From IMG/VR virus record IMGVR_UViG_3300005613_000123, positions 1-44,082 of that record: DNA of 44,082 nt; one strand, given 5' to 3'. Position numbers and translations under genes: made by a program. Below the pieces are notes generated by a model. The model was not told the DNA's origin. It was given only the letters and a program-made list of their open reading frames with translations, and did not search any database. The stretch is from a virus. This document shows positions 1,131 to 26,298 of the stretch, piece by piece (within the stretch, counting starts at the first letter, position 1; each line of letters begins with the position of its first letter).

Positions 1131-1321
1131 GCAATTCACTATTTGGAAGTAAGCCTAAGACGCCTAAGCAAGAGATTGCACAGCCGGTCCAAAAGATACA
1201 GCAGAGCAATATTGCGGACGAAACTGTTCGCAAGGACTTGGCAAAGCGGCGTAGAGCGACCATACTTAATGAAGTCACAAGTGAAGCCAATATTAAGCGT
1301 AAGACTCTCGGAGCAGGTTAA
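1127..1321 (+). CDS. Short portal-proximal protein
   Basis: Protein of 64 aa with a preceding AAGGGG ribosome site and a TAATG overlap with the portal gene. It has a Lys/Gln-rich N-terminal half, a central basic RKDLAKRRRATIL stretch and a C-terminal RKTLGAG. Short proteins of this design, ending in a glycine-containing tail, are commonly encoded directly upstream of podovirus portal genes, but their role is not established. It is likely a minor virion or assembly protein; this is inference from position. Confidence 0.65.
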   Translation: MSNSLFGSKPKTPKQEIAQPVQKIQQSNIADETVRKDLAKRRRATILNEVTSEANIKRKTLGAG

Positions 1322-3269: not shown

Positions 3270-3531
3270 TGGACTTGACCCAATTGAAGACGTAGAAGCT
3301 ACTGAAGATGAGCGACGCAAGATGTACCTTTCTGTATTCTCTGATGAATATGGCAAGGTTGTCTTAGAAGATATATTGTACGATTTGTACTTCATGCGTG
3401 AATGCGAGACACCAGAGCAGCAGGCTTTATGTAACTATGCAAAGCAGTTATTGAATACTATTCATGGGCCGATTGTTAGACCTGGCAAACTAAAAACATT
3501 GATTAAGAAATTATTAAGGGGCAAAAAATGA
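3262..3531 (+). CDS. Hypothetical protein, TTG start
   Basis: Protein of 89 aa read from a TTG codon 7 bases after a GGAG ribosome site that lies inside the end of the upstream gene; no in-frame ATG is available early. It is acidic at the N-terminus and basic at the C-terminus (KLLRGKK), and mostly helical. It overlaps the scaffold-like gene by 4 bp (ATGA). Function unknown; it probably belongs to the head assembly block. Confidence 0.65.
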   Translation: MLNGLDPIEDVEATEDERRKMYLSVFSDEYGKVVLEDILYDLYFMRECETPEQQALCNYAKQLLNTIHGPIVRPGKLKTLIKKLLRGKK

Positions 3532-4289
3532 GTGATTTGTTTACAGACGATGGAATTAACATGGAAGTTGTTCAAGAGCATCTTGGCGATGACTTCTACA
3601 ACGATCCTGAAACAAAGCAGCAGCCAACAAAGCTGTTCGACAATGTAAAGGATAGGGCAACTCTATTAAAGAACTACGCAAGTGCACAACGGACTATCAG
3701 TAAGGGTGAGGCAGACTTTGCAGAGCGTACAAAGGGCATGGTTAGCATTCCTGGTGAAGATGCCACTGATGACCAGATAAAGGCATATCGCAAGGCTATG
3801 GGCGTTCCTGAATCAATTGACGGCTATGCGATGGATATTCCAGATGGTGACGACAAGGAAAGCTTTTCTGGTATCTCTGCGGCTGTTAAAGAGGCGGCTT
3901 TAGAAGCTGGAGCACCATCAGGTATGGTATCAAAGATATGGGGTAAGGTTGTTGAAACTATGCAGGCTCAATTTAAAGGTATCGAGGATAAGGGGCAGGC
4001 TCTTATCGCGTCAGAGATCGAAGGCTTAAAAGAAATTCACAAAGATAAATATGACAGCTTTATCAAGGGTACAGATGAGGCATTGTCGAAGTTCAAGGTC
4101 GGTGCGGAAGTTAAGACCCTTCTTGATACTTACGGGATTGGTAACAGTCCAGTGATTAGGAATTTGTTAGCCGAGATTGTACCTCTTGTTAATGAGGGTA
4201 AGACTGTATTCGGCGAATCTACAAGCGTAAAAGATAAAGGTGGTTTTCCAACTTATCAATATGACGAGAATGGAAGAGCAATAGGCTAA
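3528..4289 (+). CDS. Scaffold-like head assembly protein
   Basis: Protein of 253 aa, acidic and largely alpha-helical, lying exactly between portal and major capsid genes where podoviruses encode the scaffolding protein that guides procapsid assembly and then leaves. Visible segments are an acidic N-terminus, PGEDATDDQIKAYRKAMG, a PD-rich linker, and a long helical region up to a short basic or tyrosine-containing tail. The start has an AAGGGG site. Scaffold proteins diverge quickly, so the assignment rests on size, composition and position. Confidence 0.75.
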   Translation: MSDLFTDDGINMEVVQEHLGDDFYNDPETKQQPTKLFDNVKDRATLLKNYASAQRTISKGEADFAERTKGMVSIPGEDATDDQIKAYRKAMGVPESIDGYAMDIPDGDDKESFSGISAAVKEAALEAGAPSGMVSKIWGKVVETMQAQFKGIEDKGQALIASEIEGLKEIHKDKYDSFIKGTDEALSKFKVGAEVKTLLDTYGIGNSPVIRNLLAEIVPLVNEGKTVFGESTSVKDKGGFPTYQYDENGRAIG

Positions 4290-4467: not shown

Positions 4468-5493
4468 ATGAGTACAATATATATTAACAGTAAGTATACC
4501 CTTCTTGATCGGGCAAAAGAGACATCGGACGGCAAAACCGTTCTGCCCATTATCAGCGTGATGAACGAAGACGTGGACGACTTCTTCATGGACGTTCCGT
4601 TTATGGAGGCTAATATGGGCCTCAAACATAAGATCGTTCGTGATACTGGAATGGTAACGAGCACTAAAAGAACGTTCTATAAAGGTGTAAACGCATCAAA
4701 ACGTAACAAGCAAGTTGTCTATGAAGACGTTATGCTTCAGGAACGGCGTAGAGAGATTGATGAGGATGAAATTGACACCTTGGCAAATCCCGCTGAAAAG
4801 TTGCGTCAGGAAGACGAAGGACATGCCCGTAAGCTTGGTGAAGATGTGGTTAATGCTTTCATCAATGGCGATCAGGCTGACGGCTCAGAGAACATGAACG
4901 GTCTACTCCAAAGACTAAGTTCCCTTAATCCTACTGGCCTAAACAACGTACAGTCTAACGGTTATGCTAGTGCTGGAACAAGTATTTTGATTGTTGAGTG
5001 GAATACGAACGAGACTGGCGGGGCGTATGGTATTTATCCTCAATCTGGTTTTGGTAAGAATGCACCGTTCGGTGTGTCAATCCGTGATAAGGGCAAAGAA
5101 AAAGTTCTTGATGCGGATGACACAACTGCGGCTTATTATGCGTATGTAGCTCAACTTAAAGCATGGGGTGGGCTTGCAGTTGGCAATAACCGTAAAATTG
5201 CTCGTCTTTGCAATATCAACCCAACTATCGGTGGCTCCAAGTCGTTTTCTGATGGTGGTACGCAGAATCTTATCAAGCTTCTCAACAATGGACGATTTGA
5301 CCGTAACCGTACTCGAATCTATGCAAATCCAACTATCAAGTCTCAAATGGAGATTTACGCTTTGGATAAGTCGAATCTGTTGTGGTCTCCGATGGAGATA
5401 TTCGGTAGGCAAGTAACTGCATTCCAGGGCAATATCCCTATTCGTTACATTGACGATACGATTTTGACTGACAGCCAAGACGTAGTAGAGTAA
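4468..5493 (+). CDS. Major capsid protein
   Basis: Protein of 341 aa in the canonical place after scaffold and before a capsid cement gene, matching the usual size of HK97-fold podovirus coat proteins. Features include an N-terminal arm, an early helix with many charged residues (QERRREIDEDEIDTLANPAE, about residues 91-110), a central Gly/Ala-rich segment and a C-terminal beta-rich part with FGRQVTAFQGNIPIRYID. It has a good AAGGAA ribosome site and its own structured leader, consistent with high expression. No signal peptide is present, unlike the tail genes downstream. Confidence 0.85.
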   Translation: MSTIYINSKYTLLDRAKETSDGKTVLPIISVMNEDVDDFFMDVPFMEANMGLKHKIVRDTGMVTSTKRTFYKGVNASKRNKQVVYEDVMLQERRREIDEDEIDTLANPAEKLRQEDEGHARKLGEDVVNAFINGDQADGSENMNGLLQRLSSLNPTGLNNVQSNGYASAGTSILIVEWNTNETGGAYGIYPQSGFGKNAPFGVSIRDKGKEKVLDADDTTAAYYAYVAQLKAWGGLAVGNNRKIARLCNINPTIGGSKSFSDGGTQNLIKLLNNGRFDRNRTRIYANPTIKSQMEIYALDKSNLLWSPMEIFGRQVTAFQGNIPIRYIDDTILTDSQDVVE

Positions 5494-5529: not shown

Positions 5530-5988
5530 ATGCACGATTTTCAATTTAGTGATGCTCAGGCTCTTGGTGCTCTTGATAGTACCGGTGTCGTGAGCTCTAA
5601 TGTATTCGATATGGAACTTACCAAAAGTGGTGGTGATACTATTATCGAAAACGATCAGATTGTTGGGGTTGTTAATATAACTATACCTCCGAATGCTGAC
5701 CAAGTTGCAGGTGATGAAGGTGTAGACATTAACCTTTTGTCTAATGATAATGCCGATATGACAACTGGAACCGAAGTTACTTTGGGTACTTGTCATGTAT
5801 CACAAGCCGAGTTGCTTGCTGGTTGCGTCAAGAACATCGAGGTTATTGCCAGCTTGACACAGAAGTTTATCGGTCTTTGGTTTTTGGCAACTAGCACCAC
5901 GATTACTACTGGCAATACTGTTGATGCACACTTTAGCATTGCACCATTGACTGAAAATGACGCTATCCAGAAGATTCCGTCGAGATAA
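5530..5988 (+). CDS. Capsid cement/decoration protein, Bbp16-like
   Basis: Protein of 152 aa directly after the coat gene. The N-terminus (DFQFSDAQALGAL) and the beta-rich remainder resemble the Bbp16-type capsid cement family first described in the Bordetella podovirus BPP-1, which binds the outer capsid and stabilises it. It starts after an AAGGAA site. A hairpin follows the stop. The resemblance is by eye; the alternative is an unrelated head-stabilising protein. Confidence 0.7.
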   Translation: MHDFQFSDAQALGALDSTGVVSSNVFDMELTKSGGDTIIENDQIVGVVNITIPPNADQVAGDEGVDINLLSNDNADMTTGTEVTLGTCHVSQAELLAGCVKNIEVIASLTQKFIGLWFLATSTTITTGNTVDAHFSIAPLTENDAIQKIPSR

Positions 5989-6075: not shown

Positions 6076-7074
6076 ATGAAAAAGTTTATTGTTTTTCTAA
6101 CTATAACGATGTTGACTGCAAGCCTGTTTGGTGCGTCTGCATTCGATATTAAGTGGGGCGATCAGACCACTTATTCCAGACTGCCCGGCAATACGCTTAG
6201 AGCGTGGGCTGAGGGTGTGGAAGGTTCTATTGGTACAGGTAAAAAGTTCTATGTAGATAGTGGCGTGGCGACAGGCGGCGATAGCTCTGGTACAAGCTGG
6301 ACTAACGCTGTAACCACGATAGACGCTGGTGTTGGTCTTTGTACTGCAAGTAGGGGCGATGTTATATATGTTGCTCCAGGTCATGCCGAAACAGTTGCAA
6401 GTGCCACTGGTCTTGTTTGTGACATTGCTGGTATCTCGATTATCGGTATTGGAAACGGTAGTATGATTCCAACTATAAGCCTTGGGACTGCTGTGACCGC
6501 TAAAGTCTCCGTGACAGCCGCTAACGTACGCCTAAGTAACTTGAAAATAATTTCTGCACTAGCGGACGTTGCTGAGGGGATCGACCCTACAGCGGACGCT
6601 GACGGCCTTGTGGTCGACAACTGCATCTTTACTGATGGCAGTGTATCGCTAGAGCTTAAGATTGCAATTAATGTTACGGCTGATTGTGACAATATCAGGT
6701 TGATAAATAACAGGTTCTCAACTGTTGCGGCTGGTGGCTGCACTAATGCTATCGTTCTTGCTGGTGGGTCTGATAATTCTGTAATCTCTGGCAATGTAGC
6801 GTATGGCACTTATTCTGCTGGTGCGTTGCTCGCTTCTGCGGCTCTTTCAGTGAATTTGACTATAACAGATAACATATTTGTCACCACGGCTGAGGTTGCT
6901 GCTGTTACGTTAAAAGCTGATACGACTGGTGTTTATGCCCGTAATTTTGCTGGAAGTACAACCACGATATTGCTTACTGTGATTAACGACGATGCGATGT
7001 ATTGTTGGGAAAATTATGACACGGGGGCACCTGGGGCAAGTGGCGTTATAAATCCCGCCATAGACAGTGACTAA
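6076..7074 (+). CDS. Beta-helix virion protein with Sec signal peptide
   Basis: Protein of 332 aa. Residues 1-22 form a Sec signal peptide: KK at positions 2-3, hydrophobic core, and an ASA-type cleavage site before Phe23. The mature part begins with a GTGKKFYVDSGVATGGDSSG stretch and the sequence GDVIYVAPGHAETV, followed by repeated short strands ending in NN or DN turns (CIFTD, NRFSTV, NVAYG, NIFVTT), typical of a right-handed parallel beta-helix. Related cytoplasmically made proteins occur near phage head genes as surface or tail proteins. The added signal peptide is unusual. Its position after the cement gene suggests an external structural role. Confidence 0.75.
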   Translation: MKKFIVFLTITMLTASLFGASAFDIKWGDQTTYSRLPGNTLRAWAEGVEGSIGTGKKFYVDSGVATGGDSSGTSWTNAVTTIDAGVGLCTASRGDVIYVAPGHAETVASATGLVCDIAGISIIGIGNGSMIPTISLGTAVTAKVSVTAANVRLSNLKIISALADVAEGIDPTADADGLVVDNCIFTDGSVSLELKIAINVTADCDNIRLINNRFSTVAAGGCTNAIVLAGGSDNSVISGNVAYGTYSAGALLASAALSVNLTITDNIFVTTAEVAAVTLKADTTGVYARNFAGSTTTILLTVINDDAMYCWENYDTGAPGASGVINPAIDSD

Positions 7075-7081
7075 TTAAACG

Positions 7082-7107
7082 GGGGTGGGTTTCGGCTCAC
7101 CCCATAT
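7082..7107 (+). terminator. Hairpin between tail-block genes
   Basis: GGGGTG (7082-7087) pairs with CACCCC (7098-7103), extended inward by a G-T and a G-C pair, with a TTTCGG loop. It is followed by ATATTTT. The weak T-run suggests partial termination or RNA end protection. Confidence 0.45.
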
Positions 7108-7122
7108 TTTAAGGGAAATCAA

Positions 7123-8052
7123 ATGAAAAAAGTAATTAGATACGGAAAGATAACAATTGCAATGTTATTTATCCTTGTGGCGATGGCATATATGGCAATT
7201 CCAAAGCTACCTGTGAAAGCGGACCCTGCCGATTCTTTTCATTCTGAATGGGTGCTGATTCGTGATACTGCTGACGAAGATGGAGCGACTTTTGCGGCGG
7301 TTTATGATCTGACAACGGATGGTAATTTTGCAAGCAAAGATAGTTCAAGCGTCGCTGACGGTGGCCCATACAGAATATCGCCGAGAGCAGGTTTAAATAA
7401 TAGATGGATGTTTACTTTCTGCGGCAAAAACTACAACAACGTTGATGACACTTTCAGTTTCAATCTAATCGGTTGGTCAAGGGATAACGGGATGCTTCAA
7501 AATATCGCTGAAGGTTCTTGCACTCTTGGCACTCAGGCTGTTGTCGTGTATCCTGACGGCGGCGACGCACTAGGAGAGTTAGTATCGATGACTGGTGTTT
7601 CTTACGACCATGCTGGCGGAGCGGAAGATACATACTTCAGCAAGACGGACGTAGGGCTTAATGTTGTCGCTGGAATGATGGCTTATGTTACTGGGACAAA
7701 TATTACATCTGGTTATTACCAAGTTACCGTTGTAACTGACGACGATAATATCAAGATTGCAGTAACAGCTAGCGGTGATAATACAGATTCTACGGTTGAT
7801 ATTAACCCTGCAATGTGGGCCGATACGATTGCTCTTGATGAGACTACAAAATGGACAAGTACAATCGACGGAGCTGCTGCCAGTTCAGGCAATAAGGGCA
7901 CTATTGAGGTGATAAATTCAGGTGATAATGAAGTTGCCGGTCTTGTAGTTGACTTGAAGGGTATTGATTGGGTTCAGGTTGTTGTTTATGACGCTGACGC
8001 TGCTACTGCTGAACAGGCTGGCGATATAACAGTTTATGGCCGTAAATTTTAA
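7123..8052 (+). CDS. Secreted-type virion protein of unknown fold
   Basis: Protein of 309 aa with a basic N-terminus (KKVIRYGK), a hydrophobic segment (about residues 10-26) and a VKA motif at 31-33 that could be cut before Asp34. It may be a signal peptide or an uncleaved anchor. The rest is beta-rich and acidic with no family recognised. It lies between the beta-helix protein and the adaptor in the tail block, with an AAGGGA ribosome site and a 12-bp gap to the next gene. Likely an external structural protein; this is inference from location and composition. Confidence 0.65.
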   Translation: MKKVIRYGKITIAMLFILVAMAYMAIPKLPVKADPADSFHSEWVLIRDTADEDGATFAAVYDLTTDGNFASKDSSSVADGGPYRISPRAGLNNRWMFTFCGKNYNNVDDTFSFNLIGWSRDNGMLQNIAEGSCTLGTQAVVVYPDGGDALGELVSMTGVSYDHAGGAEDTYFSKTDVGLNVVAGMMAYVTGTNITSGYYQVTVVTDDDNIKIAVTASGDNTDSTVDINPAMWADTIALDETTKWTSTIDGAAASSGNKGTIEVINSGDNEVAGLVVDLKGIDWVQVVVYDADAATAEQAGDITVYGRKF

Positions 8053-8063
8053 GAGGTTTTTAG

Positions 8064-8915
8064 ATGTCAAACGCAACTGAAAAGACTGCAATAGCGAATA
8101 TTGGGCTGTTGAGCATAGGCGAAAAAGTCATTACCTCTATTGATTCTGGCAAGCCCAATGCAGTAAAGGTGGCTTCGATATTTGAAGGAGTTGTCAAAGA
8201 ATTGCTAGCAGAGGATTGGTTCTTTAGCAGAAAGCGGGTGAAGTTTGAGGACTTGACGCAAGTTTACAAACTGACTGTTGACACTGCTCCTACACCGTCC
8301 GCTTGGGTTGCAGGTGTTACGCTTACAGGTGCTTCTAGTGCGGTCACTTGTACCGTCATTGAACCTTTATCTGATAAGGTCTATCTCGTAACAGAGCCTT
8401 CTGGCGATTGGACGGACGGTGAGGTTGTAAGCGATGGCACGAACTCTGTGGATACCGCGACTGGCTATCCTGACGACACTGACGCATTAGAACATGGTTC
8501 GTGGATGTATGGATTTAAAAGGCCTACAGACCTGTTATATTTGTTGAAGAATAGCGATCTTGGGTGCGACAGGGTGAACTTCCGATACTCACCAGAAGGG
8601 CAGATCATTTTCACCAACCAAACCGACGCATACTTAAGGTATAATAAATGGATCGGTTACGAGGGAAGTTCGACGGTTAGCGATGTTACTGGAATGCCAG
8701 TATGGTTTCATAGGCTAATATCTGCAAGGTTGGCTTATATTCTTGCACCGAATGTCACAGAGAACCAAAAAAGAGAACAAAAAGCCGAAATAGAATATAA
8801 TGACGCATATCTGACAGCAAGAGAAAAGAACGGTGATAGTTTTTGGTATCAAGACGAATCCAATAACGATTGGGCTTATGGTGCGAATAATGTTATAGAC
8901 GGACTGGTTTATTGA
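8064..8915 (+). CDS. Tail adaptor, T7 gp11-like
   Basis: Protein of 283 aa resembling the T7 gp11 (tail tubular protein A) adaptor family that docks on the portal and carries the nozzle. The N-terminal IANIGLLSIGEKVITSID and helical VVKELLAEDWFFSRKRVKF, and the C-terminal PVWFHRLISARLAYILAP with a final Ala/Tyr-rich helix (YNDAYLTAREKNGDS), follow the family order. A beta-rich insertion at about residues 68-150 makes it longer than the usual ~200 aa. It has no signal peptide, in contrast to its neighbours. It overlaps the fibre gene by 4 bp. Confidence 0.8.
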   Translation: MSNATEKTAIANIGLLSIGEKVITSIDSGKPNAVKVASIFEGVVKELLAEDWFFSRKRVKFEDLTQVYKLTVDTAPTPSAWVAGVTLTGASSAVTCTVIEPLSDKVYLVTEPSGDWTDGEVVSDGTNSVDTATGYPDDTDALEHGSWMYGFKRPTDLLYLLKNSDLGCDRVNFRYSPEGQIIFTNQTDAYLRYNKWIGYEGSSTVSDVTGMPVWFHRLISARLAYILAPNVTENQKREQKAEIEYNDAYLTAREKNGDSFWYQDESNNDWAYGANNVIDGLVY

Positions 8916-10690
8916 TGAAAAAGATTCTTTTACTATTATCGCTACTCTTGTTACTTCTTATTAACCACGCTTCGTCTGACACGAGTGGTACTAAGTACAA
9001 GTTGCGAAGTAACCTGAAAAAAGAGTTAAAGATATCAGGCTCTCTGGCAATGCAGGGTGATCTTGATATGGCTAATTACGACATTCTCAACGGCGGTGAT
9101 GTTGATTTTGACGCAATATCTACAGAGAGTGTAACCGTATCCGATCTTACGCCTACTAGGGTAATCTTTGCCGGTATAGGCGGACTTCTTAGTGATGATG
9201 CTGATTTGGCGTTTATAACCGATACGCTTTCTGTTACGAATCTAACCTCTAGTGGGACGGGTACGTTTGGGCAGATAATAGATAATGGACTTAACGCTTC
9301 GAGCCTTGTATGGACAGACGCATCAAAACAGTTAACCTCAACTCCGTCATGGCCTACGTCAGGTCAGCTTGGCTACTGGTCTAGGACTGCTACAACCCTA
9401 AGCCCTGCAAGTTCAGGCGATGACGTTTCGATTGATGGAGATTTGTTTGTACCTACAGAATTAGGCGGCATTCATGGTCTAGTGCTTGGTGCTAACAAGC
9501 TTGGTTATATGAAGATATTTTCGTCAGACGATATGTATATAGGGAATAGAAACCCAGGCAAAAGTGTAATTTTCGATGTACGTGACTCTGGGAATGTAGG
9601 CCGTGTTCCGTTGAGTTTCAATACAGACTTCCTGAATATAACTCGCACAGGTACAAGTAACGACTCGATAGCTACGACAGCGAGATTGTTTTATCAGTTA
9701 TCCTCTGGCTCCGGTTTAGCTGGTATAGGTTCTGCGTTTTCTATGAGAACACAGGCTGGGGCTGTGACTGGCGTTAATACAGGCTATTTTGGTGGTAGAC
9801 TAGACAATGTTGGAAGTGGTACAGAAATAGGCACGATGACTATTTCACCGGATTACCATAACTCTGCGACCTATTCGTTAGATAGAGAGTTTTCTGTGGC
9901 CTCTGTTGCTGCCGATGAAATTCTGGTTTCGATGACTAAGGGTAATTTAATTGTCACAGATGGCAGGGTCCGTATAGGCGACTCAACATCACCAACTAAT
10001 GAGCTTGAAGTGAACGGGTCAAGCATACTTGGCGATGGTGGGACGACTGATTACACAGAAGTTTCTGCGACTGGAAACGTTACACTTCCTGCTGGTGCGG
10101 CTGGTGCAGGTAGGGCACCTATCAAGTTCCAAGACGGAGTTGCACAAACTACACCTGAAGCTGGAACTATAAATTATTACGACGACAAATTCTGTATCGT
10201 TAATGTGGCCACGTGCAAGGCAATTGACAGAACAAGTGATGTTTTGACAAGCACTGTTGAGGCGGTTAATACAACGACCGAGACAACAATATTTACAGCA
10301 CCAATTGCCGCAAATGCGGTTAGGGCTGGTAACGTGCAGAAGTTTAAGGCTAGCGGTCAAATATCCTCAGTAAGTGCTGCCGACATTTGCACTATACGAA
10401 TTAAGGCCGGTGGAAATACGATATCAACAATAAGCAGCCCCGGAAAGAATTTATCTGATGCTTGTTGGCAAATTGACGCATTTACTACAATAAGAACTAT
10501 TGGTTCTTCGGGCACTGCTGCAACTAATATTAAAATGGAAGCAGAGGACAACACAACTAAATTTTGCTCTGGCAATGTATCAATAGATACCACTGGAGCA
10601 CTAGACATAACCGTAACTGCTCAATGGAATAATGCTAAAGCCGGAAACACTATAAATATCGTACAGGGTTGGTTAGAATATAAAAACTAA
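8912..10690 (+). CDS. Tail fibre-like protein with signal peptide
   Basis: Protein of 592 aa. Residues 1-20 are a strong Sec signal (MMKK followed by a run of Leu and NHA). The mature region has repetitive beta strands resembling phage fibre shafts, with NELEVNGSSILGDGGTTDY and an APIKFQDGVAQTTPEAGTIN stretch typical of fibre or tail-spike repeats. The last ~160 residues form a beta-rich domain with four Cys that may be the receptor-binding tip. It starts inside the adaptor gene end (ATGA overlap). Likely a receptor-binding tail fibre; the exact partner is unknown. Confidence 0.75.
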   Translation: MMKKILLLLSLLLLLLINHASSDTSGTKYKLRSNLKKELKISGSLAMQGDLDMANYDILNGGDVDFDAISTESVTVSDLTPTRVIFAGIGGLLSDDADLAFITDTLSVTNLTSSGTGTFGQIIDNGLNASSLVWTDASKQLTSTPSWPTSGQLGYWSRTATTLSPASSGDDVSIDGDLFVPTELGGIHGLVLGANKLGYMKIFSSDDMYIGNRNPGKSVIFDVRDSGNVGRVPLSFNTDFLNITRTGTSNDSIATTARLFYQLSSGSGLAGIGSAFSMRTQAGAVTGVNTGYFGGRLDNVGSGTEIGTMTISPDYHNSATYSLDREFSVASVAADEILVSMTKGNLIVTDGRVRIGDSTSPTNELEVNGSSILGDGGTTDYTEVSATGNVTLPAGAAGAGRAPIKFQDGVAQTTPEAGTINYYDDKFCIVNVATCKAIDRTSDVLTSTVEAVNTTTETTIFTAPIAANAVRAGNVQKFKASGQISSVSAADICTIRIKAGGNTISTISSPGKNLSDACWQIDAFTTIRTIGSSGTAATNIKMEAEDNTTKFCSGNVSIDTTGALDITVTAQWNNAKAGNTINIVQGWLEYKN

Positions 10691-10701
10691 GGGGCTTGAA
10701 A

Positions 10702-10908
10702 ATGAAACATACAACTTTAATAGTTTGTGCTTTGCTGTTCATTTCAATTGCGATTGGAAGTACAGCAATTGTTGATATGATGGAATATTGGATGACTGAC
10801 GATGAGGTTGTAGACTATAACAAGGATGGGATTGTGAACTTAAAAGATTTTGCTTTGATTGGCAGCTATGGCTGTGATGTGTACGGTTCAGGTACTTATG
10901 GTAATTAA
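10702..10908 (+). CDS. Short secreted dockerin-like protein
   Basis: Protein of 68 aa starting at the ATG after the fibre gene; an in-frame TTG lies 2 codons upstream. Residues 1-22 are a Sec signal ending STA. The mature part contains DYNKDGIVNLKDFALIGSYG, which matches one calcium-binding half of a type I dockerin repeat (D-x-N-x-D-G-x-V/I-N-x-x-D). A full dockerin has two halves, so this is a single-repeat form. It is placed between fibre and tailspike genes and may tether a virion part or the host surface. This class is common in planctomycete and clostridial exoproteins, rare in phages. Confidence 0.7.
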   Translation: MKHTTLIVCALLFISIAIGSTAIVDMMEYWMTDDEVVDYNKDGIVNLKDFALIGSYGCDVYGSGTYGN

Positions 10909-10927
10909 ATTTAAAAAGGAAAGAAAC

Positions 10928-12655
10928 ATGAAAAAGTTAATTGTAATCTTGGTTTTATTTTGTAGCACTACGGTTTTTGGTGCGGCTCTTTACACACTGC
11001 CGTCGGTTGGCGACATAAACACTTGGGGAACTAATCTCAATAATTATCTCAACTCAACTAAAGAAGGGGTAACTGTTGCAGAGTATGGTGCTACTGGCGA
11101 TGGCGTTACGGACGACACTGCCGCTATTAACTTAGCACTTGCAGTAGGAGGTAATGTAATATTCAGTTCATACGGCAGTGACACGTACCTTGTTAATAGT
11201 GCTGATCTAGTTATACCTTCCAATACTTCTTTATATATTGATGCTGGTGTAACTTTGAAACTTGACGGCACACGCATTAGGGCTATTGACGCTGACAATG
11301 TGGGGATATATGGACCCGGAGCCATCCAAGCACTTAATATACCTACCACAGATGCGTTCCCTACAGGTGATTACACATGGGCAATTATGGGCGTTATAAA
11401 CTTTGGCTCAACCACAGGCGTCATTGCTACTGCTTCTGATGGACTTACTATCGATTGTATTGAGTTTTATGCTGACGGAGACGATACGCATGACGGAACA
11501 CAACGGAATAACCGGACAGAGGGTATTGTGTGTGTAAATGCGAACAATATACGTATTAGAAATTGCAATATACATCATTTTGAAAGTGAGTGTATCAACC
11601 TAAACAATGGAGGCGTAACAACCGGAACCGTTAACTACGGCCAGTGGGTTCATAACAACTATATTCACGACTTTGGGCATGATGGAATTTCTACACAACA
11701 GTATCGGCAAGAGGACGCATTCTTTTATGACAATTTCTTATATGATGGGTTTACTGCTATTGAGGGATTGGTTGGTGTTTATAATGGAAATATAATCGAT
11801 ACTATGGCTGCCGGTGGGTTTGCTTTAGGAGGTAATGTTGTTATTGCTGGATTGACAATAACTAACAATACGATAGTCAATATTGGAACAATTGGTATTA
11901 GTTACGAAAATACAATTCCACCAATAGAGGCTACATCGGGTCCAATTACAATACAGGGCAATAGGCTTGAGGGAATTGGAAGTGTTGGCGTTTATGTACG
12001 CTATCTGAAAGATATAACTGTTACAGACAATATAATAGTAGACGCCGGAAGTACGGCATTTGCTATACTTGATTGTGATCGCGGTTTAATTGCAAATAAT
12101 GTATGTGCTGGCAGAGGTACTGCTACAGTTGGAATTCAAGGGAACGCAACAAATACAAATGTAAAGTTCTTTAATAATTTCGCTCATAGCGATATAACTA
12201 CTCCTTATGCCACCCACGAACGAGAGGCAACCGACACAATAACACTTTCTAATGCAGATATTAAGGCGTTAGCTACAGGTACAGGCAAGACCCTCATAGC
12301 AGCTCAAGGTGCTGGTTATATAACCGAAGTAACCTCAGTTGTATTGTTTCTTGATTACGGTTCAGAGGTATTGGCAGAACCTTCTGCACCTGATGACATT
12401 GCAATTAACTATGATGGTGTAACTGGTGGCCAGATTGCAACTCAAGATTCCACTGGGTTCATTACCTCAAATGCTGATGCTATTATGATTATTCCGCAAG
12501 CCGCAATAAGTGCGGCAACAGCAGTAACAGCCGCCGCGAATGTCAATAAGACTGTAAACCTGATAAACACAGGCAGTAATTATACTGGCAATGCGTCAGC
12601 AGATACAACAATGACAGTTAAAATATCTTATAAGGTTCACTACACAGGACTATAA
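10928..12655 (+). CDS. Pectate-lyase-like tailspike with signal peptide
   Basis: Protein of 575 aa from the ATG that follows an AAAGGAAAGAA site. Residues 1-18/19 are a signal peptide (KKLIVILVLFCSTTVFG). The mature start contains VAEYGATGDGVTDDTAAINLAL (about residues 46-67), the hallmark N-terminal motif of the pectate-lyase superfamily used by many phage tailspikes, followed by a parallel beta-helix with many NN-turns (RNCNIHHFES, NNTIVNIG) and a C-terminal beta domain of about 130 residues. It likely binds or degrades a host surface polysaccharide. Catalytic residues cannot be named from sequence alone. Confidence 0.8.
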   Translation: MKKLIVILVLFCSTTVFGAALYTLPSVGDINTWGTNLNNYLNSTKEGVTVAEYGATGDGVTDDTAAINLALAVGGNVIFSSYGSDTYLVNSADLVIPSNTSLYIDAGVTLKLDGTRIRAIDADNVGIYGPGAIQALNIPTTDAFPTGDYTWAIMGVINFGSTTGVIATASDGLTIDCIEFYADGDDTHDGTQRNNRTEGIVCVNANNIRIRNCNIHHFESECINLNNGGVTTGTVNYGQWVHNNYIHDFGHDGISTQQYRQEDAFFYDNFLYDGFTAIEGLVGVYNGNIIDTMAAGGFALGGNVVIAGLTITNNTIVNIGTIGISYENTIPPIEATSGPITIQGNRLEGIGSVGVYVRYLKDITVTDNIIVDAGSTAFAILDCDRGLIANNVCAGRGTATVGIQGNATNTNVKFFNNFAHSDITTPYATHEREATDTITLSNADIKALATGTGKTLIAAQGAGYITEVTSVVLFLDYGSEVLAEPSAPDDIAINYDGVTGGQIATQDSTGFITSNADAIMIIPQAAISAATAVTAAANVNKTVNLINTGSNYTGNASADTTMTVKISYKVHYTGL

Positions 12656-15087
12656 TGATTAAAAAACTATTACTAATATTACTATTTCTCATTCTATGTC
12701 AAGTCGGCTTCTCTGCGTACCTGAATACTGCTTTCAATTCAGGTGAGTTAAGCCCCTTGCTTAGATATAGGGTTGATCTAGATAAAAAGTATCTCGGTGT
12801 CGAGACGATGGAGAACTTCTTTGTCAAGCCGCAAGGAACCGCAATGCGGAGAGCAGGTACGTTTTATGTTGATGTGGCTGCTGGGGTGTCACACCTTGTT
12901 TCTTTTGAAAGTTCTACCGATGATGCGTATATATTAGAGTTTTCAGATAGCCTTATTAGATATTACCGTTGCGTTTCGGGCGTTGCAGGTCAAATACTCG
13001 ACGATTCTGGTGCTACATACGAAATAACTACAGTCTATGATGAAGACCAAATATCAGAAATACAATATGTTCAGTTGAACGACGTAATGTATATCGTCCA
13101 TCCTGATGATCCGCCACAAAAGCTTATTAGGATCGACCATGACGAATGGACAATAGCCGACGTTGGATGGGAATGGGGGCCGTTCTTAGATCAGAACACT
13201 ACGACAACAACCATAACACCGTCGGCAACCACAGGTGAGATAACGTTGACCGCATCGGCTGCTACGTTTACCGCAGACAATGTCGGTTCTTTGTGGAAGA
13301 TAATCGAAAAATCTGCCAACTCTTACACGTCTGGTAATATCGCATCAAACACAAGTAGCTCAAACGTTGCTATTGAAGGTGATGGGTTGCTGACACTAGA
13401 GGGGACGTGGACAGGTCTTATGACGCTGGAAAAGAGCGTTGTTGATGCCGACTCGTGGGAACCTGTATACCCAAAGCTCAATGGCGACGCCCCCAATATT
13501 GAGTATTCTTTTAGTGAGTCTGATGCTGGTTATGAGTATCGCGTCACAATGACTGACAGAACATCTGGAAGTTGCGATTATACTTTAACAGCATACAACT
13601 CTGATGTTTCTGGGTACGTTGAAATTACGGCTTTTACCAGCACAACATCCGTAACTGCTACGGTAACGAGTACGCTTGCTGGTACTGCTGCGACAACTAA
13701 ATGGGCTGAGGGTGCATGGAGTCCTCGTAGGGGTTATCCAAGGGCTATTTGTATTTACCAAAACAGATTATGTCTTGCAGGTACAACTTACCAGCCTAAC
13801 GGATTTTGGGCAAGTGCTTCTGCTGATCCAGAGAGCATGAGAGAGTCTACGCTAGATAATGGTGCAATTGCCTACGAAGTTAGTGCAACAAAGCAAAATC
13901 CTATTTTATGGCTTCAGGATAAAAACGGAGTTATCGCAGGTACTACTGGCTCAGTTATAAGAATATTTAGTCAATCAAATACGTCTGTGTTGACCGCATC
14001 AACTATAGGTTCTGAAAGACAGGCTGAGGCTGGAAGTGCCGATATGAAGCCAGCTTTAGTAGGCGATTCTATTGTGTTCGTTGACCGCAACAGACGTAAG
14101 GTTCGTGATATGATATACGACCTGCAAAGCGATGGTTTCGTATCTCCTGAACTTACCGTAATGGCAGAGCATATAACGTCTCCAAGTCTTATAGACATAG
14201 CCGTACAGAACCGTCCTGATAACATTGTGTGGTTTGTCAGGAGTGATGGACAGCTTGTATCATTGACATATAATCGAAATGAGGGTGTAGTTGCTTGGGC
14301 AAGGCATATAACGGATGGAAAGTTTGAATCTGTAGCCGTCATACCTGGTACTGATGAAGATCAAGTATGGTTTGTGGTGAAGCGTACAATAAACAGTGGT
14401 GAGGTTAGATATATCGAGCAAATGCAACCTCAAGACTGGGGAACTGATATAGATAATTCTTGGTTCGTTGATTCCGGTTCAACTTATTCTGGTATTTTAA
14501 CTGACACAATAACAGGACTTGATTATTTAAACGGCAAAACTGTTCAGTTGGTAAGTATTAAAGGTGATGAATATTCATTAACTTCAACAAGCGATGTTTC
14601 TTATGGCTCTGGTGCGTATGGGTCTGGTGTTTATCCCGGCTACACATCAACAGATGCGTCATTTACAGAAGTGACTGTAGTTGGAGGTGAGATTGATTTT
14701 TCAGACGCCAATATCAAAGTGAATCGTGCGATAGTTGGCTTGCCGTATACGTCTACTTTTTTATCTTTTCCTATAGAAGTTCAGACTCAAAGCGGATTTT
14801 CCATTGGGTATAAGAAAAAAATATATGAAATTGATGGTTGTTTTTACAGAACGATGGCCGGGCAGTATGGACTAAAAGAACAGTTCACAGAACCTACAAT
14901 GTACGATATCATGTTCTCTGAATGGCCTGACACTACTAATGGTTCAAATGATCCTTATACTGGCATGATACGGTTAGAAGTTGACGGTGGTTGGTCTGAC
15001 GAAGTTCAGATTAAGTTCTTGCAATCTGACCCTTATCCGTTTAATATAACTGCTGTTCAGTCGAAAGTTGAGGTTTCGCAGGATTAA
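12655..15087 (+). CDS. Tail nozzle, T7 gp12-like, with signal peptide
   Basis: Protein of 810 aa in the size class of T7 gp12 (tail tubular protein B). The conserved start of that family, here LNTAFNSGELSPLLRYRVD with NFFVKPQGTAMRRAGT, begins at about residue 23. In front of it stands a Sec signal (MIKK, Leu-rich core, GFSA). Later stretches RRGYPRAICIYQNRLCLAGT and PNGFWASASADPES are typical of the nozzle beta-propeller. It starts in a TAATG overlap with the tailspike gene and overlaps the GNAT-like gene by 20 bp. The nozzle forms the tail tip, so a signal peptide on it is unexpected. Confidence 0.85.
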   Translation: MIKKLLLILLFLILCQVGFSAYLNTAFNSGELSPLLRYRVDLDKKYLGVETMENFFVKPQGTAMRRAGTFYVDVAAGVSHLVSFESSTDDAYILEFSDSLIRYYRCVSGVAGQILDDSGATYEITTVYDEDQISEIQYVQLNDVMYIVHPDDPPQKLIRIDHDEWTIADVGWEWGPFLDQNTTTTTITPSATTGEITLTASAATFTADNVGSLWKIIEKSANSYTSGNIASNTSSSNVAIEGDGLLTLEGTWTGLMTLEKSVVDADSWEPVYPKLNGDAPNIEYSFSESDAGYEYRVTMTDRTSGSCDYTLTAYNSDVSGYVEITAFTSTTSVTATVTSTLAGTAATTKWAEGAWSPRRGYPRAICIYQNRLCLAGTTYQPNGFWASASADPESMRESTLDNGAIAYEVSATKQNPILWLQDKNGVIAGTTGSVIRIFSQSNTSVLTASTIGSERQAEAGSADMKPALVGDSIVFVDRNRRKVRDMIYDLQSDGFVSPELTVMAEHITSPSLIDIAVQNRPDNIVWFVRSDGQLVSLTYNRNEGVVAWARHITDGKFESVAVIPGTDEDQVWFVVKRTINSGEVRYIEQMQPQDWGTDIDNSWFVDSGSTYSGILTDTITGLDYLNGKTVQLVSIKGDEYSLTSTSDVSYGSGAYGSGVYPGYTSTDASFTEVTVVGGEIDFSDANIKVNRAIVGLPYTSTFLSFPIEVQTQSGFSIGYKKKIYEIDGCFYRTMAGQYGLKEQFTEPTMYDIMFSEWPDTTNGSNDPYTGMIRLEVDGGWSDEVQIKFLQSDPYPFNITAVQSKVEVSQD

Positions 15088-15520
15088 GCAAATAAATAAA
15101 CCAATAACAAGAGAAATGACAGCCGATGATATCCCATGCCTAGTGCTTGAGCAAGAATCACTTAGGGATGTCTACTATGAATACTTTGATGAAGGTAGGG
15201 GTCCAGCTTGGGTTCTTGAGGATGAAAGCGGAATTATAGCTTGTTTCGGAGCCACTATTCTATGGCCCGGAGTTTGTGAGGTTTGGTTTAGCTTAGTCAG
15301 AGCAGACAAGAGTATTTCGGTTATTAGGAATGCAAAGAAATTTCTTGAAGAACAGGGAGAACGGTTCGGGGTCAAAAGGTTTCAGGCGGCGGTTAATGTG
15401 AACAATAAAACAAGCATTAAATTTGTAGAGTTCTTCGGGTTTAAAAATGAAACACCAAAAGGCATGAAAAGTTATTTACCTGACGGAAGTACAGCTTATT
15501 TATTTTCAAGGATTTTATAA
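15068..15520 (+). CDS. GNAT-fold protein, T7 gp13-like position
   Basis: Protein of 150 aa read from TTG inside the end of the nozzle gene. The TTG start is preferred because it keeps the first beta strand (KPITREMTADDIPCL) expected of a GNAT acetyltransferase fold; the next ATG at 15116 would remove it. Further strands and an RFQAAVNVNNKTSIKFVEFFGF segment fit the acetyl-CoA-fold C-terminal half. Proteins of this fold occur after the nozzle gene in T7-like phages as gp13-type proteins. Enzyme activity is uncertain since the usual Q/RxxGxG/A loop is not clear. Confidence 0.7.
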   Translation: MRFRRIKQINKPITREMTADDIPCLVLEQESLRDVYYEYFDEGRGPAWVLEDESGIIACFGATILWPGVCEVWFSLVRADKSISVIRNAKKFLEEQGERFGVKRFQAAVNVNNKTSIKFVEFFGFKNETPKGMKSYLPDGSTAYLFSRIL

Positions 15521-16035
15521 TGGCGTTAGCAACAATGGCACTTGCCGGTACTGGTTTAGCCTTGCAATATAAGCAGACCTTAGACGAAGGTAAGGAAACT
15601 GCTAAATTAGCTAAAATACAGCAACAGCAGATAGATGCACAGGCGAAGTCTGTTCAAGAGGCTGGACAGCTAGAATCGAGAGAAAAACGCAAACAGGCTA
15701 AACGTGCACAAGCGTCACAGATAGCACAGATGGCAGCAAACGGTGGTGCTATAACAGGTTCTAACCTGTCGTTATTAGCTAACACTTCAAGGGAATTTGA
15801 GGCCGATGCTTTAGTAATATCCCGCAACTATGGAGTCAAGGCTATGGAACTAAGGAACAAAGGTGCGTTGGTAAGGTATCAGGGCAGACTTGCTAGAAGA
15901 AGCTCAAGGATAAGAGGTGCTACTAATCTTGCTAAGGGAATTGGAACTATGGCATTGGCGGGTGGATTTAGTGCCGGCGGTGGTGGTCAAGCAACTACAG
16001 TGCCAAGCCAAACAGGTGGATACCGCATACAATAA
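15520..16035 (+). CDS. Internal virion protein, T7 gp14-like
   Basis: Protein of 171 aa: hydrophobic Ala/Gly-rich N-terminus (ALATMALAGTGLALQ), a long Gln/Lys/Ala-rich helical middle, a second Gly/Ala-rich segment near the C-terminus and no charged globular domain. This layout and the position after the gp13-like gene match T7 gp14-type ejection proteins, which leave the capsid and form an outer-membrane pore during DNA entry. Start and previous stop overlap (TAATG). Confidence 0.75.
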   Translation: MALATMALAGTGLALQYKQTLDEGKETAKLAKIQQQQIDAQAKSVQEAGQLESREKRKQAKRAQASQIAQMAANGGAITGSNLSLLANTSREFEADALVISRNYGVKAMELRNKGALVRYQGRLARRSSRIRGATNLAKGIGTMALAGGFSAGGGGQATTVPSQTGGYRIQ

Positions 16036-16050
16036 CTAAGGAAATAGATT

Positions 16051-17760
16051 ATGCCAGAAGTATCACAATATTACAGACAACAAAGACTAACCCCTCTTAG
16101 CGGTGTTGGCAATCTGTCTGGTGCGGACATTGCAGCAGCCACGCAAGGCAATAGAGAACTCGCTAAAGTTGGCAATATGGTCACTGAATTTGGGTTAGAA
16201 TTCATGGAAAGAAAAGAAAAGGCCGAGTTCCATGACCAGTTTAACACAGCAAAGACAGAATACTTGACAAAGTTTTTCAACTATGAACAGGAATTAAAGA
16301 CTAACGCAGACACCGAAACATACATGCCTGGTTTGGAGTCCAGCCAGACAAGTGCATATAAATTCACCAACAAAAGGGCGGCAAACGAATTTGAATTATG
16401 GAAAGCAAACGAAGATTTAACCCAAAAAAGGCGTGTGTTTAGTGTTAAGAATGACAGGGATATCCAGAATTATACCGACAATTGGAACCTTGGAATAAAA
16501 GAGGCTACCAGAAGAACTGCAAATGCTGTATCAGAGCCAGATTATCAGCTTGAACTTGCTAACGGTATGGACTATTACGGTTTAGAATATGCCACTGATA
16601 AGGATGGAGAGCCAATATTAAATAAGGACGGAGAACCAACAATACAACTTATAGAGGATTGGGAAAATCCATTGCTTGACTCTGATGAGGTTAGGATGGC
16701 TGGCTATGAAGCTTGGAAGGCTGATGCTGATGCAAAACGTAAGGTTGTGATGGAGGAGCAACTTAAAACTGGTATCGAGGCAAAGGTATTCAGGATAGCT
16801 GCGGATCAGGGGTATGAAGCTGCCGAGGAAATATTGAGCGATCCGACTACTGTAGCTGAATTGATAGAGAGTGGCATGGATAGAAAAGACGTCAAAAGCC
16901 TTCTTAATGATGTTGGGGACAGGATTACAAGACAGAAAGCAAATGACAAAATAGAGCTTGAAGCCAGGCAAGAAACTCAGCTTGACGAAATTAACAAGCT
17001 AACTTTTGACGAGAAGGATTACAATGCCGCTGCTACTGCGGTAGAAGCATCTGATATTAACGAAAAGGAACAGCGAACTTTATTAAGTGATATTGACAGA
17101 AGGGCAAACGCTGCGGCTAATGGAAAAACGTTAGCTAACGACAGGGTCGAAGAAAACAGGCTTTACGAGTTATCGCTTGATATATGGAGGGGGGCTGTTA
17201 CTAAAAAAGGATTCAACGAGGAACTTATCAAGAATCAGAGCAAGCTAGATGACGCAGCGTACAAGCGAGTAGCTACGTCGGCGGCCAGCACTCTAAAGTC
17301 TTCACAGGCACAAAGTCTTAATAGGGCCAACACAGAAGCAATGAGGCAGTTGGTAGATTTCCAATCAGAGGATGCTTTCGCTAAATTTATATCAGAGAGT
17401 ATAAAAGGTTTAAAACCGGATATAGCTAAAGCCTTCGAGGATAACGCAAACGAAACACGACAGGCTCAATTCAGAGAGCTTTCTAATTTTAACGCTGAAC
17501 TAAGAGAGTGGATAGAAAATAATCCTGACAAAACAGGAAAAGAGTTTTTCGTTTACAGCAGGGGTCTAGAAAATCAGTACCGTACCGCAAAACAGTCTGG
17601 CACTACTGTAGATAAGACAAGGAATGCTGAATTGCTTAAGGAGTTAAATGAATTACCGCAAGTAAAGACTATAATGATGATTAGTCCTGATGGAAAGAGA
17701 TATAGGGTTCCGTTAGATAATGTTCAGAAGTTTATAGATAATGGGTATAAAGGAATGTAA
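16051..17760 (+). CDS. Internal/ejection protein, gp15-like position
   Basis: Protein of 569 aa, highly charged and mostly helical with long coiled-coil-prone stretches (Glu/Lys/Arg with Ala), starting after a GGAAATAG site. Located between the gp14-like gene and the 1433-aa gene, where T7-like phages encode the second ejection protein. No enzymatic motif is visible. It overlaps the next gene by 1 bp (TAATG). Confidence 0.65.
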   Translation: MPEVSQYYRQQRLTPLSGVGNLSGADIAAATQGNRELAKVGNMVTEFGLEFMERKEKAEFHDQFNTAKTEYLTKFFNYEQELKTNADTETYMPGLESSQTSAYKFTNKRAANEFELWKANEDLTQKRRVFSVKNDRDIQNYTDNWNLGIKEATRRTANAVSEPDYQLELANGMDYYGLEYATDKDGEPILNKDGEPTIQLIEDWENPLLDSDEVRMAGYEAWKADADAKRKVVMEEQLKTGIEAKVFRIAADQGYEAAEEILSDPTTVAELIESGMDRKDVKSLLNDVGDRITRQKANDKIELEARQETQLDEINKLTFDEKDYNAAATAVEASDINEKEQRTLLSDIDRRANAAANGKTLANDRVEENRLYELSLDIWRGAVTKKGFNEELIKNQSKLDDAAYKRVATSAASTLKSSQAQSLNRANTEAMRQLVDFQSEDAFAKFISESIKGLKPDIAKAFEDNANETRQAQFRELSNFNAELREWIENNPDKTGKEFFVYSRGLENQYRTAKQSGTTVDKTRNAELLKELNELPQVKTIMMISPDGKRYRVPLDNVQKFIDNGYKGM

Positions 17761-20700
17761 TGGCATTTGATCCAGAAAAAGAAGGTGCGGTAGCTGTATT
17801 TAATCCTGCCGCTGAAGGTGCTGTAGAGGTAGGTGGCCCTACAATTGCCCCAAACCAAGATGTCAAAGACGTGTCTGATCGTGCAGGTATGGTATACGAT
17901 ACCGCCATAGAGGATAATATATCTATTAATCAAGCAGATAAATACTTTTACAGTACCGCTAGCACGCAGAAAAGTATCGAGCATGATTTCTATAAAGACC
18001 CGCCACCAGACAACAGGACTGGTTTTAGCGAGGAATGGATAAGTCAATGGACAGGTGTAAACTTAGCCACTAAGGTACCCATTGTTGGCGGCGTCATTGG
18101 AGGGCTCGAATCATTAGATTTAATATGGGCTGCGAACAGGCTTAGTGATCCTAAGTTTGATTATGATAAGTATAATCGTAAAGAAGACGCATACGCTACT
18201 TCTGTAGGTGTTGGGCCAATACAAATGTCCCGAACGCGGAAACAACTCAGAGGCCCATCGTCTCGAAGTAGAGAAAGTGACAAAGCACAGGTTATAGCTG
18301 CTGTAAAGGACGCAACTAAAGAGCGTACATTTGGCGGCAAGGTAGCACAAGGCGTATCGGCACTTCCAACATGGATGATAGAATTTGCCGCTACAGGAGG
18401 TCTTGCTTCATTAGGTGACGATGCGGCCAAAAAGGCAGGTGAAAAAATCCTCCGCAAGTACACTAAGACATTAGCCGGCAAAGCCGCCATTAAATCTGGT
18501 AGGCTTGTCACAGGTGCAGTGGTTAGAACGTCCACTGGCTTACTTCCGAGAGTAGGAGAAAAGGCTGTCGCAAGACAGGCGATGATCGAAATTGGTATAT
18601 CTAAAAATGAAGGATGGGCTACAAGTCTCGCTAAAGCATGGGGCGATGTTGCGATTGAGTCGTTTTCGGAAGAAACGGGTGGGTTACTCACCAGAGGTGC
18701 AGGTAGATTGCTTGATAAGCTTCCGTTTGGAAAAAGATACATAGAGATGCTTAAAACCAGTTGGGTGGAGGCAGGGCTTGGAACTACCGATGATTTTGCT
18801 AGCAAGGTATTCACTAAGACTGGTTATTCTAACATTCTAGCGGAAATGGGCGAAGAACGCATTGGAACATTACTCCGTGAAGCTACGAGCGTTTCGGATC
18901 GTAAAGGCGAATGGGGGGAACGTATTTGGTCTGGTATGCAAGAAGACTTCACGTTAGAGAATTTAGGTGTTGAGTTAATTACGCTATTGGCCCCTGCTGC
19001 TGCTAAGCGAGGTATGACAATCGGGCAATCTTTGACAAAGGGCGTAGACGTACCTACAGAGGCCGAGCAACTCAATCAGGCCATCGATGCCGGCAAGGTT
19101 GAGTTTGACTCCACAGAGGACGCACAGGGCTTTGCTGATAAAGCTGCGGAGGTTGCACAGCGAGAAGGCGTGGACGTTACTATAAATACCGACATGGAAA
19201 ATAATTCTGTTACTGTAGAGAGGGTCAAAGCAGGGCAAGCTGGAATAACTAAAGAAGGCGAAGATTTTAGTGATTTCTTTGATTTTCAAGAATCCAAACC
19301 AGAAATTATAGCCGAGGAAAAAGGGCCACAAACCATAAAGGAAATGAAAGAAGATGCTTACGATGCTATTTTTAGTGACCCGGTATTCCAAATAGAAGAG
19401 GAAGCTCTTGATATCCAAACTAGACAGGTAGATGTTGGGGTTTACGCTGTACCAGAGAATTTAAAAGGTGAGATTAAGAAAGCCATTGAGGATGATCCGT
19501 CGTTAAGGTTTAGTATTTCTACTACTGGAAAAGGAACTCCTTACGATGTTGCCGTACAAGAAGGATTGCTGCAAAGAACTGCTGGGTCTGAAGGGGAAAT
19601 TGATATTGAAGAATTCTTAGGTATGGTTGCACAGGCCAATAAAGCTAAGAAGAAAATTGGTGGTGTGTCAGAAATACTTTTGGACAAGATGATCGCTAGC
19701 GGACAGCCATATAGCGAGATAGACGCAATAAAACACAAAATGTTACACTCTGGCTTTACTATATCTGAGATAAACGAAGCAGTTCAAGATATTGGTACTG
19801 AGTATGATATCGACGTTAATGATTTAATTTTAAAGGAAAAAGATCGTGACGAAAAAAGTAGAAAAGTTCCTGAAGGAACACAGGCAGCGAAGGAAATCAC
19901 TTCTAGGGGAATCAAAAAAGTCAGGAAATCGCTTGCCAAAGCAAGAAAAGTTATACCAAAAATAAAAGCTGAACAGAAAGCCGAAAGAAAAAAGCGAGTT
20001 GGTGCTGCCGCTGGTGCATTGAAATCAAACGTAAAGAAAGGAACCCCAACTGATGAAGCTATATTCAGGTCAACAGGGTTGCTTAAGGGTCAGCTTACGG
20101 ATTATGAGCAGAGATATGAACCAATAGAAGACCAACTCACAGGCGAAGAGAAGAACGCTCTTTACGATAAAATTAGAAGCCATCCAGGTTTGCAATATTT
20201 CGATATTGTAAACACAGCAACATCGCTCAAGAAATTGCTAGGTGGAGTTGCTTTAACCGATGGCGATGTTAAGAATATTAAGAAGGTGTTCGGTAAGTCT
20301 TTTGTGAGCGACAATGGTAAAGATATTTTAGCCGAAAGACAGGAGGTGAGTAGTTTTTATGACAAGGCTGTAGCTTTATGGAAAGCTGGTTTACTGACTG
20401 GTATAAAAACATCAGGGCTTAACACTCTGTCTAACATGGCTCATTCTATATCAGAGTCGGCGGCCACTTTGGCAGGTGTTCCAGTAGACAAGACTGCCGC
20501 ACTGTTTACCGGTAAAAGAGCATTGGCGTTTACAACCAAAGGAACCAAAGAAGGAGTCATCAGAGGCCTTAAGTCTGGTTGGAATTACATGAAGACCGGC
20601 GAAAGCGAAAGAGATATTGGAAAGAAACTTGACTATACGAAGGTTAATTTTGGAACTGGTAAAATAGCGAGGGGTTTGCAAGTGTATGAAGAAACCATAT

Positions 20701-26034: not shown

Positions 26035-26298
26035 TTAGTTCTCTGTTTTAAACTTAAAACTCTTAGTTAGTGGGTCAAACTCCAATGCAATATCGGAGGG
26101 TATCCCTTTATATCCGTCAATCTCGAAGAACCCATTTGGGTCATAGTAAGCCCCGTCAGACCATACTGACTTAAATAAGGTATTGACCTTAAGTGTCGCA
26201 CCGTTTTTGGCCGTATGGATGACCTGTGTGCACCCTACCGTCCACAAGGTGAATAGAAATAAGCCGAGGTAGATTAGTGTGGTTATGATATGTTTCAT
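26035..26298 (-). CDS. Small lipoprotein
   Basis: Protein of 87 aa with a signal peptide (MKHIITTLIYLGLFLFTLW) and a lipobox TVGC at residues 20-23, so Cys23 is the predicted lipidated residue. The mature 64 residues are beta-rich. Its ATG overlaps the stop of the 50-aa gene. A small phage lipoprotein near a holin-like gene could be a spanin component or a surface-exclusion protein; no proline-rich Rz1 signature is seen. Confidence 0.7.
   Translation of the reverse strand: MKHIITTLIYLGLFLFTLWTVGCTQVIHTAKNGATLKVNTLFKSVWSDGAYYDPNGFFEIDGYKGIPSDIALEFDPLTKSFKFKTEN

Follow-up and report, generated by a model that had tools for sequence, protein, structure and literature searches.

Predicted export signals on nozzle, fibre and spike genes, and none on head genes, in a group of uncultured short-tailed phages

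As judged from gene sequences, uncultured podoviruses of a widespread group appear to carry export signals on their nozzle, fibre and spike genes and never on their head genes. This distribution suggests that the tail parts may arise outside the cytoplasm and come together with the DNA-filled head at a later stage. The arrangement would be new, in that it was found neither among the isolated phages that we checked nor in the accessible parts of the papers that we consulted.

The window, by which we mean the whole 44,082-base virus record that was analyzed, has a direct terminal repeat of 123 bases (1-123 = 43960-44082), and its genome is therefore circular or terminally redundant. The terminase gene is divided between both ends of the record. 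The genes of the structural block are listed in their order in Table 1. The PF12236 portal, the GP7 capsid, the adaptor and the gp12-type nozzle are the features of a BPP-1/T7-like short-tailed phage (Caudoviricetes). The order portal, scaffold, capsid, cement-position gene, adaptor, nozzle, (GNAT), internal proteins is common to the window, the BPP-1/epsilon15/phiV10 podoviruses and the Pelagibacter phages of the HTVC010P type, and all of these phages share the nozzle family with the window. What sets the window apart is the presence of spikes and fibres between its capsid and nozzle genes, where BPP-1 and the Pelagibacter HTVC phages have none. The window also departs from the usual BPP-1/T7-like state in a feature that does not define these phages, namely that its tail proteins do carry export signals. 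Three further genes, on the minus strand, are given at the end of Table 1 and are possibly lysis or envelope genes.

Table 1. Genes of the window, their signals and the basis of their assignment
Product	Position	Strand	Signal	Basis
Portal	1321..3006	+	none	Pfam Head-tail_con (PF12236), E 3e-61
Scaffold-position protein	3528..4289	+	none	phrog_3742, weaker phrog_458 'protease', gene order
Major capsid protein	4468..5493	+	none	Pfam GP7 (PF20911, BPP-1/epsilon15-type), E 7e-46
Capsid cement protein (Bbp16 family)	5530..5988	+	none, though expected outside the capsid	phrog_427
Beta-helix-like protein, 332 aa	6076..7074	+	MKKFIVFLTITMLTASLFGASA at 6076-6141	rule-based score
309-aa protein	7123..8052	+	long signal ending in VKA, followed by DPADSF, at 7123-7221	no family match
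Adaptor (T7 gp11 / Bbp14 type)	8064..8915	+	none	phrog_394
Fibre-like protein, 591 aa from ATG 8915 (TTG 8912 possible)	8915..10690	+	MKKILLLLSLLLLLLINHASS at 8915-8977	
Small dockerin-like protein, 68 aa	10702..10908	+	MKHTTLIVCALLFISIAIGSTA at 10702-10767	
Tailspike with right-handed beta-helix	10928..12655	+	MKKLIVILVLFCSTTVFG at 10928-10981	phrog_2234 tail spike, Pfam Beta_helix
Tail nozzle (T7 gp12 / Bbp13 type)	12655..15087	+	MIKKLLLILLFLILCQVGFS at 12655-12714	phrog_376, 8ck1
GNAT acetyltransferase, after nozzle	15068..15520	+	none	Pfam Acetyltransf_1
Three internal (ejected) protein genes (15520, 16051, 17760)	15520..22061	+	none	gene order as in BPP-1 and Pelagibacter phages
Small lipoprotein-like protein (WTVGC)	26035..26298	-		
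3D-domain protein, hydrophobic segment at N-terminus	37278..37697	-		
Small lipoprotein-like protein (MFLQGC)	37977..38255	-		

The preliminary description of this DNA counted six external virion proteins with signals. This naming is certain for the nozzle, which matches phrog_376 (E 1e-175) and PDB 8ck1 both by sequence (E 6e-144) and by fold. It is good for the tailspike, on the basis of phrog_2234 and Pfam, and weak for the fibre, on the basis of a weak tblastn match to cyanophage tail fibres. For the products of 6076, 7123 and 10696, which have no family match, the status of an external virion protein is presumed. The AF2 model of the 7123 product was of low confidence and gave no significant fold match, and the small dockerin-like product gave no match in Pfam, the sole family database tested for it. 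Relatives of the 6076 product with a signal were found in L002, L005, L009, L014 and L019, and those of the fibre-like product in L001, L002, L005 and L014. The 6076 product also has one tblastn relative in MW202647 (35%), which adjoins the capsid gene and has no signal.

The AF2 model of the window nozzle (pLDDT 72) matches the Carin-1 nozzle 8ck1 with an E value of 3e-48 and a TM score of 0.73, and also matches LME-1, T7 gp12 (TM ~0.5) and P22 gp10. In this model the signal is a separate helix (residues 2-15) followed by a low-confidence linker (16-47), apart from the nozzle fold, and the mature protein is predicted to be an ordinary nozzle. The same nozzle fold occurs in the T7 gp11/gp12 and Carin-1 (8ck1) tail complexes, where there is no signal. 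The tails of T7 and Carin-1 form in the cytoplasm.

Signals were scored with a rule combining a net positive n-region, an uncharged nine-residue core with a mean Kyte-Doolittle value of at least 1.9, and small residues at -3/-1. The rule was positive for 10/10 well-known E. coli signals, the N-termini of which were written from general knowledge. In the window, all six of the products in question (6076, 7123, fibre, small protein, tailspike and nozzle) were positive, versus 0/9 for the portal, scaffold, MCP, cement protein, adaptor, GNAT and three internal proteins (Fisher p = 2e-4). The preliminary description had reported Sec-type signals on these six products and none on the adaptor, capsid, portal, scaffold and internal proteins. 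Both observations were reproduced, with signals of the Sec/SPase-I type and with the cement protein and the GNAT added to the signal-free set.

It could be argued that the signals are an artefact of start calling, or that host genes were misbinned as phage, since the listed starts 8912, 10696 and 10859 were off by a few codons. They were corrected to 8915 for the fibre (ATG, one codon past the listed TTG 8912), 10702 for the small protein (ATG, two codons in from 10696) and 10928 for the tailspike (ATG, not 10859). Between the start of the window nozzle and its conserved FNSGEL motif, however, no ATG, GTG or TTG occurs in frame, and the L001 nozzle likewise has no internal start. The signal of the window nozzle, which is fused to the conserved nozzle, is therefore not a start-site artefact, and the concern that misannotated starts hide shorter internal ones does not apply to it. 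Related loci show the same pattern, and the artefact is refuted by their nozzle N-termini and by the class counts across them; we regard its probability as negligible.

When IMG/VR was scanned with the nozzle, portal and capsid, about thirty related contigs were retrieved whose nozzle, appendage genes or both bear signals. The counts refer to 28 signal-group loci plus the window, among which L001 and L013 are separate stretches of the same contig; gene classes were set by phmmer seeds, and 'other' genes by position. In these signal-bearing genomes, signals were found on 87/93 nozzle or appendage genes and on 0/155 head, adaptor, GNAT and internal genes (Fisher p 2e-60, in a test that treats genes as independent although the genomes are related). 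The signals are thus conserved in the homologues. None was found on the portal (0/12), scaffold (0/16), capsid (0/19), cement-position (0/20, assigned by position alone in several of the loci), adaptor (0/24), GNAT (0/17) or internal proteins (0/47). They were present on 33/35 capsid-to-adaptor genes, the two exceptions being L027:1705 and L107:7551, on 16/16 adaptor-to-nozzle genes, on 29/33 nozzles and on 9/9 genes of at least 150 aa between the nozzle and the internal proteins. The four nozzle misses are artefacts. The L082 nozzle fails the rule yet reads MIRKFLILLLLCNVAFG followed by LSPSIT, the L099 nozzle starts with a non-standard codon, and the L097 nozzle was missed due to a start chosen far upstream by the ORF caller. 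The C-terminal nozzle fragment without a signal in L105, which would speak against export, is read as a frameshift. In the relatives with signal-less nozzles, the rule was positive for 0/35 nozzles and 2/143 head, adaptor, GNAT and internal genes.

The split had been described as one between the inside and the outside of the virion. The cement gene matches the family of BPP-1 Bbp16, a cement protein located at the outer surface of the capsid (PMC3863775). The cement gene has no signal, nor has the adaptor. The divide therefore does not separate inside from outside, but runs between the head with its portal and adaptor on one side and the nozzle with the appendages on the other. Of the earlier interpretation, what stands is that the signals are real by sequence tests, conserved, and added to a nozzle family that is normally signal-less; the inside/outside split does not. 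L039 and L108 have signal-less nozzles, yet further proteins encoded close to their tail genes do carry signals (L039:608-4908; L108:2020-4470 and 11498-12061). Nozzle export would therefore not be a strict partner of appendage export, and appendage export may have been the earlier of the two.

Two phages from one sample, whose nozzles are ~37% identical, have a near-identical pair of signal-bearing genes (L001:4395-5846 and L027:10287-11711), which suggests gene exchange. The first gene of the pair has a C-terminal domain found in cyanophages.

The nature of the signals was analyzed on 102 of them. K or R occupied position 2 or 3 in 99/102. No twin-arginine motif was found (0/102), and the signals are thus not of the Tat type. 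Lipobox-like strings occurred in 4/102, of which three belong to a single protein family and lie within its core, and the SPase II type was not seen either. AxA-like motifs were present in 72/102, versus 54.5 expected and a maximum of 69 in 500 within-segment shuffles, although these cleavage-site statistics are partly circular because the sites were chosen by their residues. The features found, a charged n-region, a hydrophobic h-region and small residues at -3/-1, are those of Sec/SPase I signals. A raised cysteine content, as a mark of periplasmic life, was not seen in the nozzles (0.66 vs 0.78%).

It is worth considering whether the segments are tags for assembly or chaperone binding on tail parts and not Sec signals, since tail and appendage genes alone carry them. 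All the Sec features are present, however, and are common to unrelated proteins, and the sequence varies freely while only the pattern K/R - hydrophobic - small is kept. We therefore find tags highly improbable.

Another possibility is that the N-terminal segments are retained and anchor the proteins in the membrane. The tail proteins would then be tethered, and the heads would dock at the inner membrane, where the tail would be built. The 7123-type proteins, which have longer hydrophobic cores, and the lack of any such segment in head genes are consistent with this. The hydrophobic runs of the nozzles, however, measure 9-19 residues (mean 14), and many of these could not span a membrane stably; near the homology boundary there is a small residue. 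An N-in anchor, moreover, would still place the nozzle outside, away from the head. The short cores, the AxA-like excess and the small residue at the boundary argue that cleavable Sec signals would fit the nozzle segments better than anchors do. Anchoring is thus an unlikely general explanation, and it may apply to the 7123-type family with its longer core.

The nozzles of the group are 85 to ~31% identical to the window nozzle, and all those with a readable start have the signal: K or R, a hydrophobic run and a small residue, with the nozzle domain following a few residues later. The segment is absent in the nozzles of BPP-1, phiV10, BcepC6B, Vibrio 1.182.O and HTVC034P, in those read from bacterial genomes, and in those of the environmental relatives L003, L004, L026 and others. 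Unlike the window nozzle, the signal-less nozzles, including those checked from BPP-1, phiV10 and HTVC-type phages, begin at the conserved domain, often with MAK/MAR-x-SP. The starts in L003, L004, BPP-1, phiV10, BcepC6B and HTVC034P lie at, or at most ~10 residues from, the predicted cleavage point of the window nozzle. In a maximum-likelihood tree of 54 nozzles, the 22 signal-bearing rows cluster with two changes of state, a number as low as which was reached in 0/500 shuffles. A single clade for these 22 nozzles was not rejected (AU p 0.355). The clustering and the range of identity over which the signal is kept suggest that the trait looks old and stable, and it is possibly of one origin.

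Bacterial genome contigs scanned with the nozzle alignment gave 18 loci, none of them with a signal on the nozzle. Among 294 Planctomycetota genomes, six had nozzle matches, with no signal where the N-terminus was readable. No tRNA was found in the window, and 17 related loci yielded no tRNA whose anticodon could be read. The adaptors are longer in the signal group (234-284 aa, one 324) than in the signal-less relatives (mostly 185-223). We do not claim that the larger adaptor is a compensating plug, as the inserts sit at different places.

In three loci the nozzle gene is split in two (L002:7886-12037, L005:6317-10786 and L112:8938-13166). The N-piece corresponds to model positions 2-96, and the C-piece runs from 142/145 to 794 in L002 and L112, that of L005 being cut by the contig end. 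A third gene in each of these loci encodes a second N-domain interrupted by an insert of several hundred residues, and it is conceivable that the nozzle is built from two kinds of N-domain. All nine of these genes, three in each locus, have a signal of their own. A new signal on an internal nozzle piece makes sense only if that piece must reach the compartment of the rest, and this is the strongest single argument for function. L112 is far from L002 in the tree, and closer relatives of L002 have an undivided nozzle gene, so that more than one origin of the split is possible.

Long inserts, LamG-like by reading of the sequence, are found near the place of the split in the nozzles of L019:14131-17889, L030:4198-8064 and L094:9001-12873. 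The DNA coding for the signal of a split piece in L112 holds a short repeat (10487-10517), and capture from a repeat of this kind is a possible origin of the signal. As a host marker the repeat is too unspecific, being present in 58/294 Planctomycetota and also in 17/249 Pseudomonadota genomes.

The split nozzles also bear on the idea that the signals serve to export free copies acting as decoys, depolymerases or receptor blockers, the virion copies being made signal-free or before export. The spikes and fibres of many phages do work as free enzymes as well. A free nozzle, however, has no obvious use, the window and L001 nozzles offer no internal start for a signal-free copy, and a signal on each split piece argues that the exported product is the assembled one. 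Export of free copies is thus improbable.

We consider it probable that the tail parts are exported by genuine, probably cleaved Sec signals and that the tails join filled heads upon failure of the inner membrane. The BPP-1/T7-like podoviruses of this clade would make their nozzle, tailspikes, fibres and further appendage proteins as Sec precursors, which the host Sec system would translocate and signal peptidase I would free of their signals. The mature tail parts would then lie outside the cytoplasm, in the periplasm if the host is diderm. Heads would fill with DNA in the cytoplasm, closed by portal and adaptor, and meet the nozzle and appendages at the inner membrane, or once the membrane fails late in infection. 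The use of the segments by Sec, their cleavage, the location of the parts and the place and time of joining are what we infer from the signals. That virion assembly is split over two compartments, with Sec-secreted and periplasm-matured tail parts reaching filled, adaptor-closed heads on membrane breach, is a proposal that we hold with more reserve, the case for and against it seeming nearly balanced.

Besides the signal-less nozzles of L039 and L108 and the nozzle cysteine content, which is not raised, two points weigh against export followed by late joining. We know of no tailed phage that builds its tail outside the cytoplasm, and tailed phages are taken to assemble entirely within it. The nozzle normally helps to keep the packaged DNA in, and the heads would therefore have to wait without it. 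On the other hand, tailspikes of P22 can be added to heads in vitro, so that late joining would be possible in principle.

Virion proteins with Sec signals are familiar from the filamentous phages (M13 pIII and pVIII), which are assembled at the inner membrane. These phages differ from the window in having an unrelated virion without head or packaging motor and in being extruded without lysis. SAR endolysins and exported lysis proteins are also phage proteins that use the host Sec system, but they are lysis factors and not virion parts. In the accessible parts of the open-licence literature on export signals of phage tails and virions, no description of nozzle proteins with Sec signals was found. 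Phage DGR target proteins are stated to be without signal peptides (PMC6199706).

If this clade does export its tail parts, the order of assembly, the closure of the filled head and the coupling of assembly to lysis would differ from the textbook scheme. Signals on nozzle genes would then be a marker by which such phages could be spotted in metagenomes, and the clade would provide a natural way of producing tailspikes and nozzles that are secreted and correctly folded.
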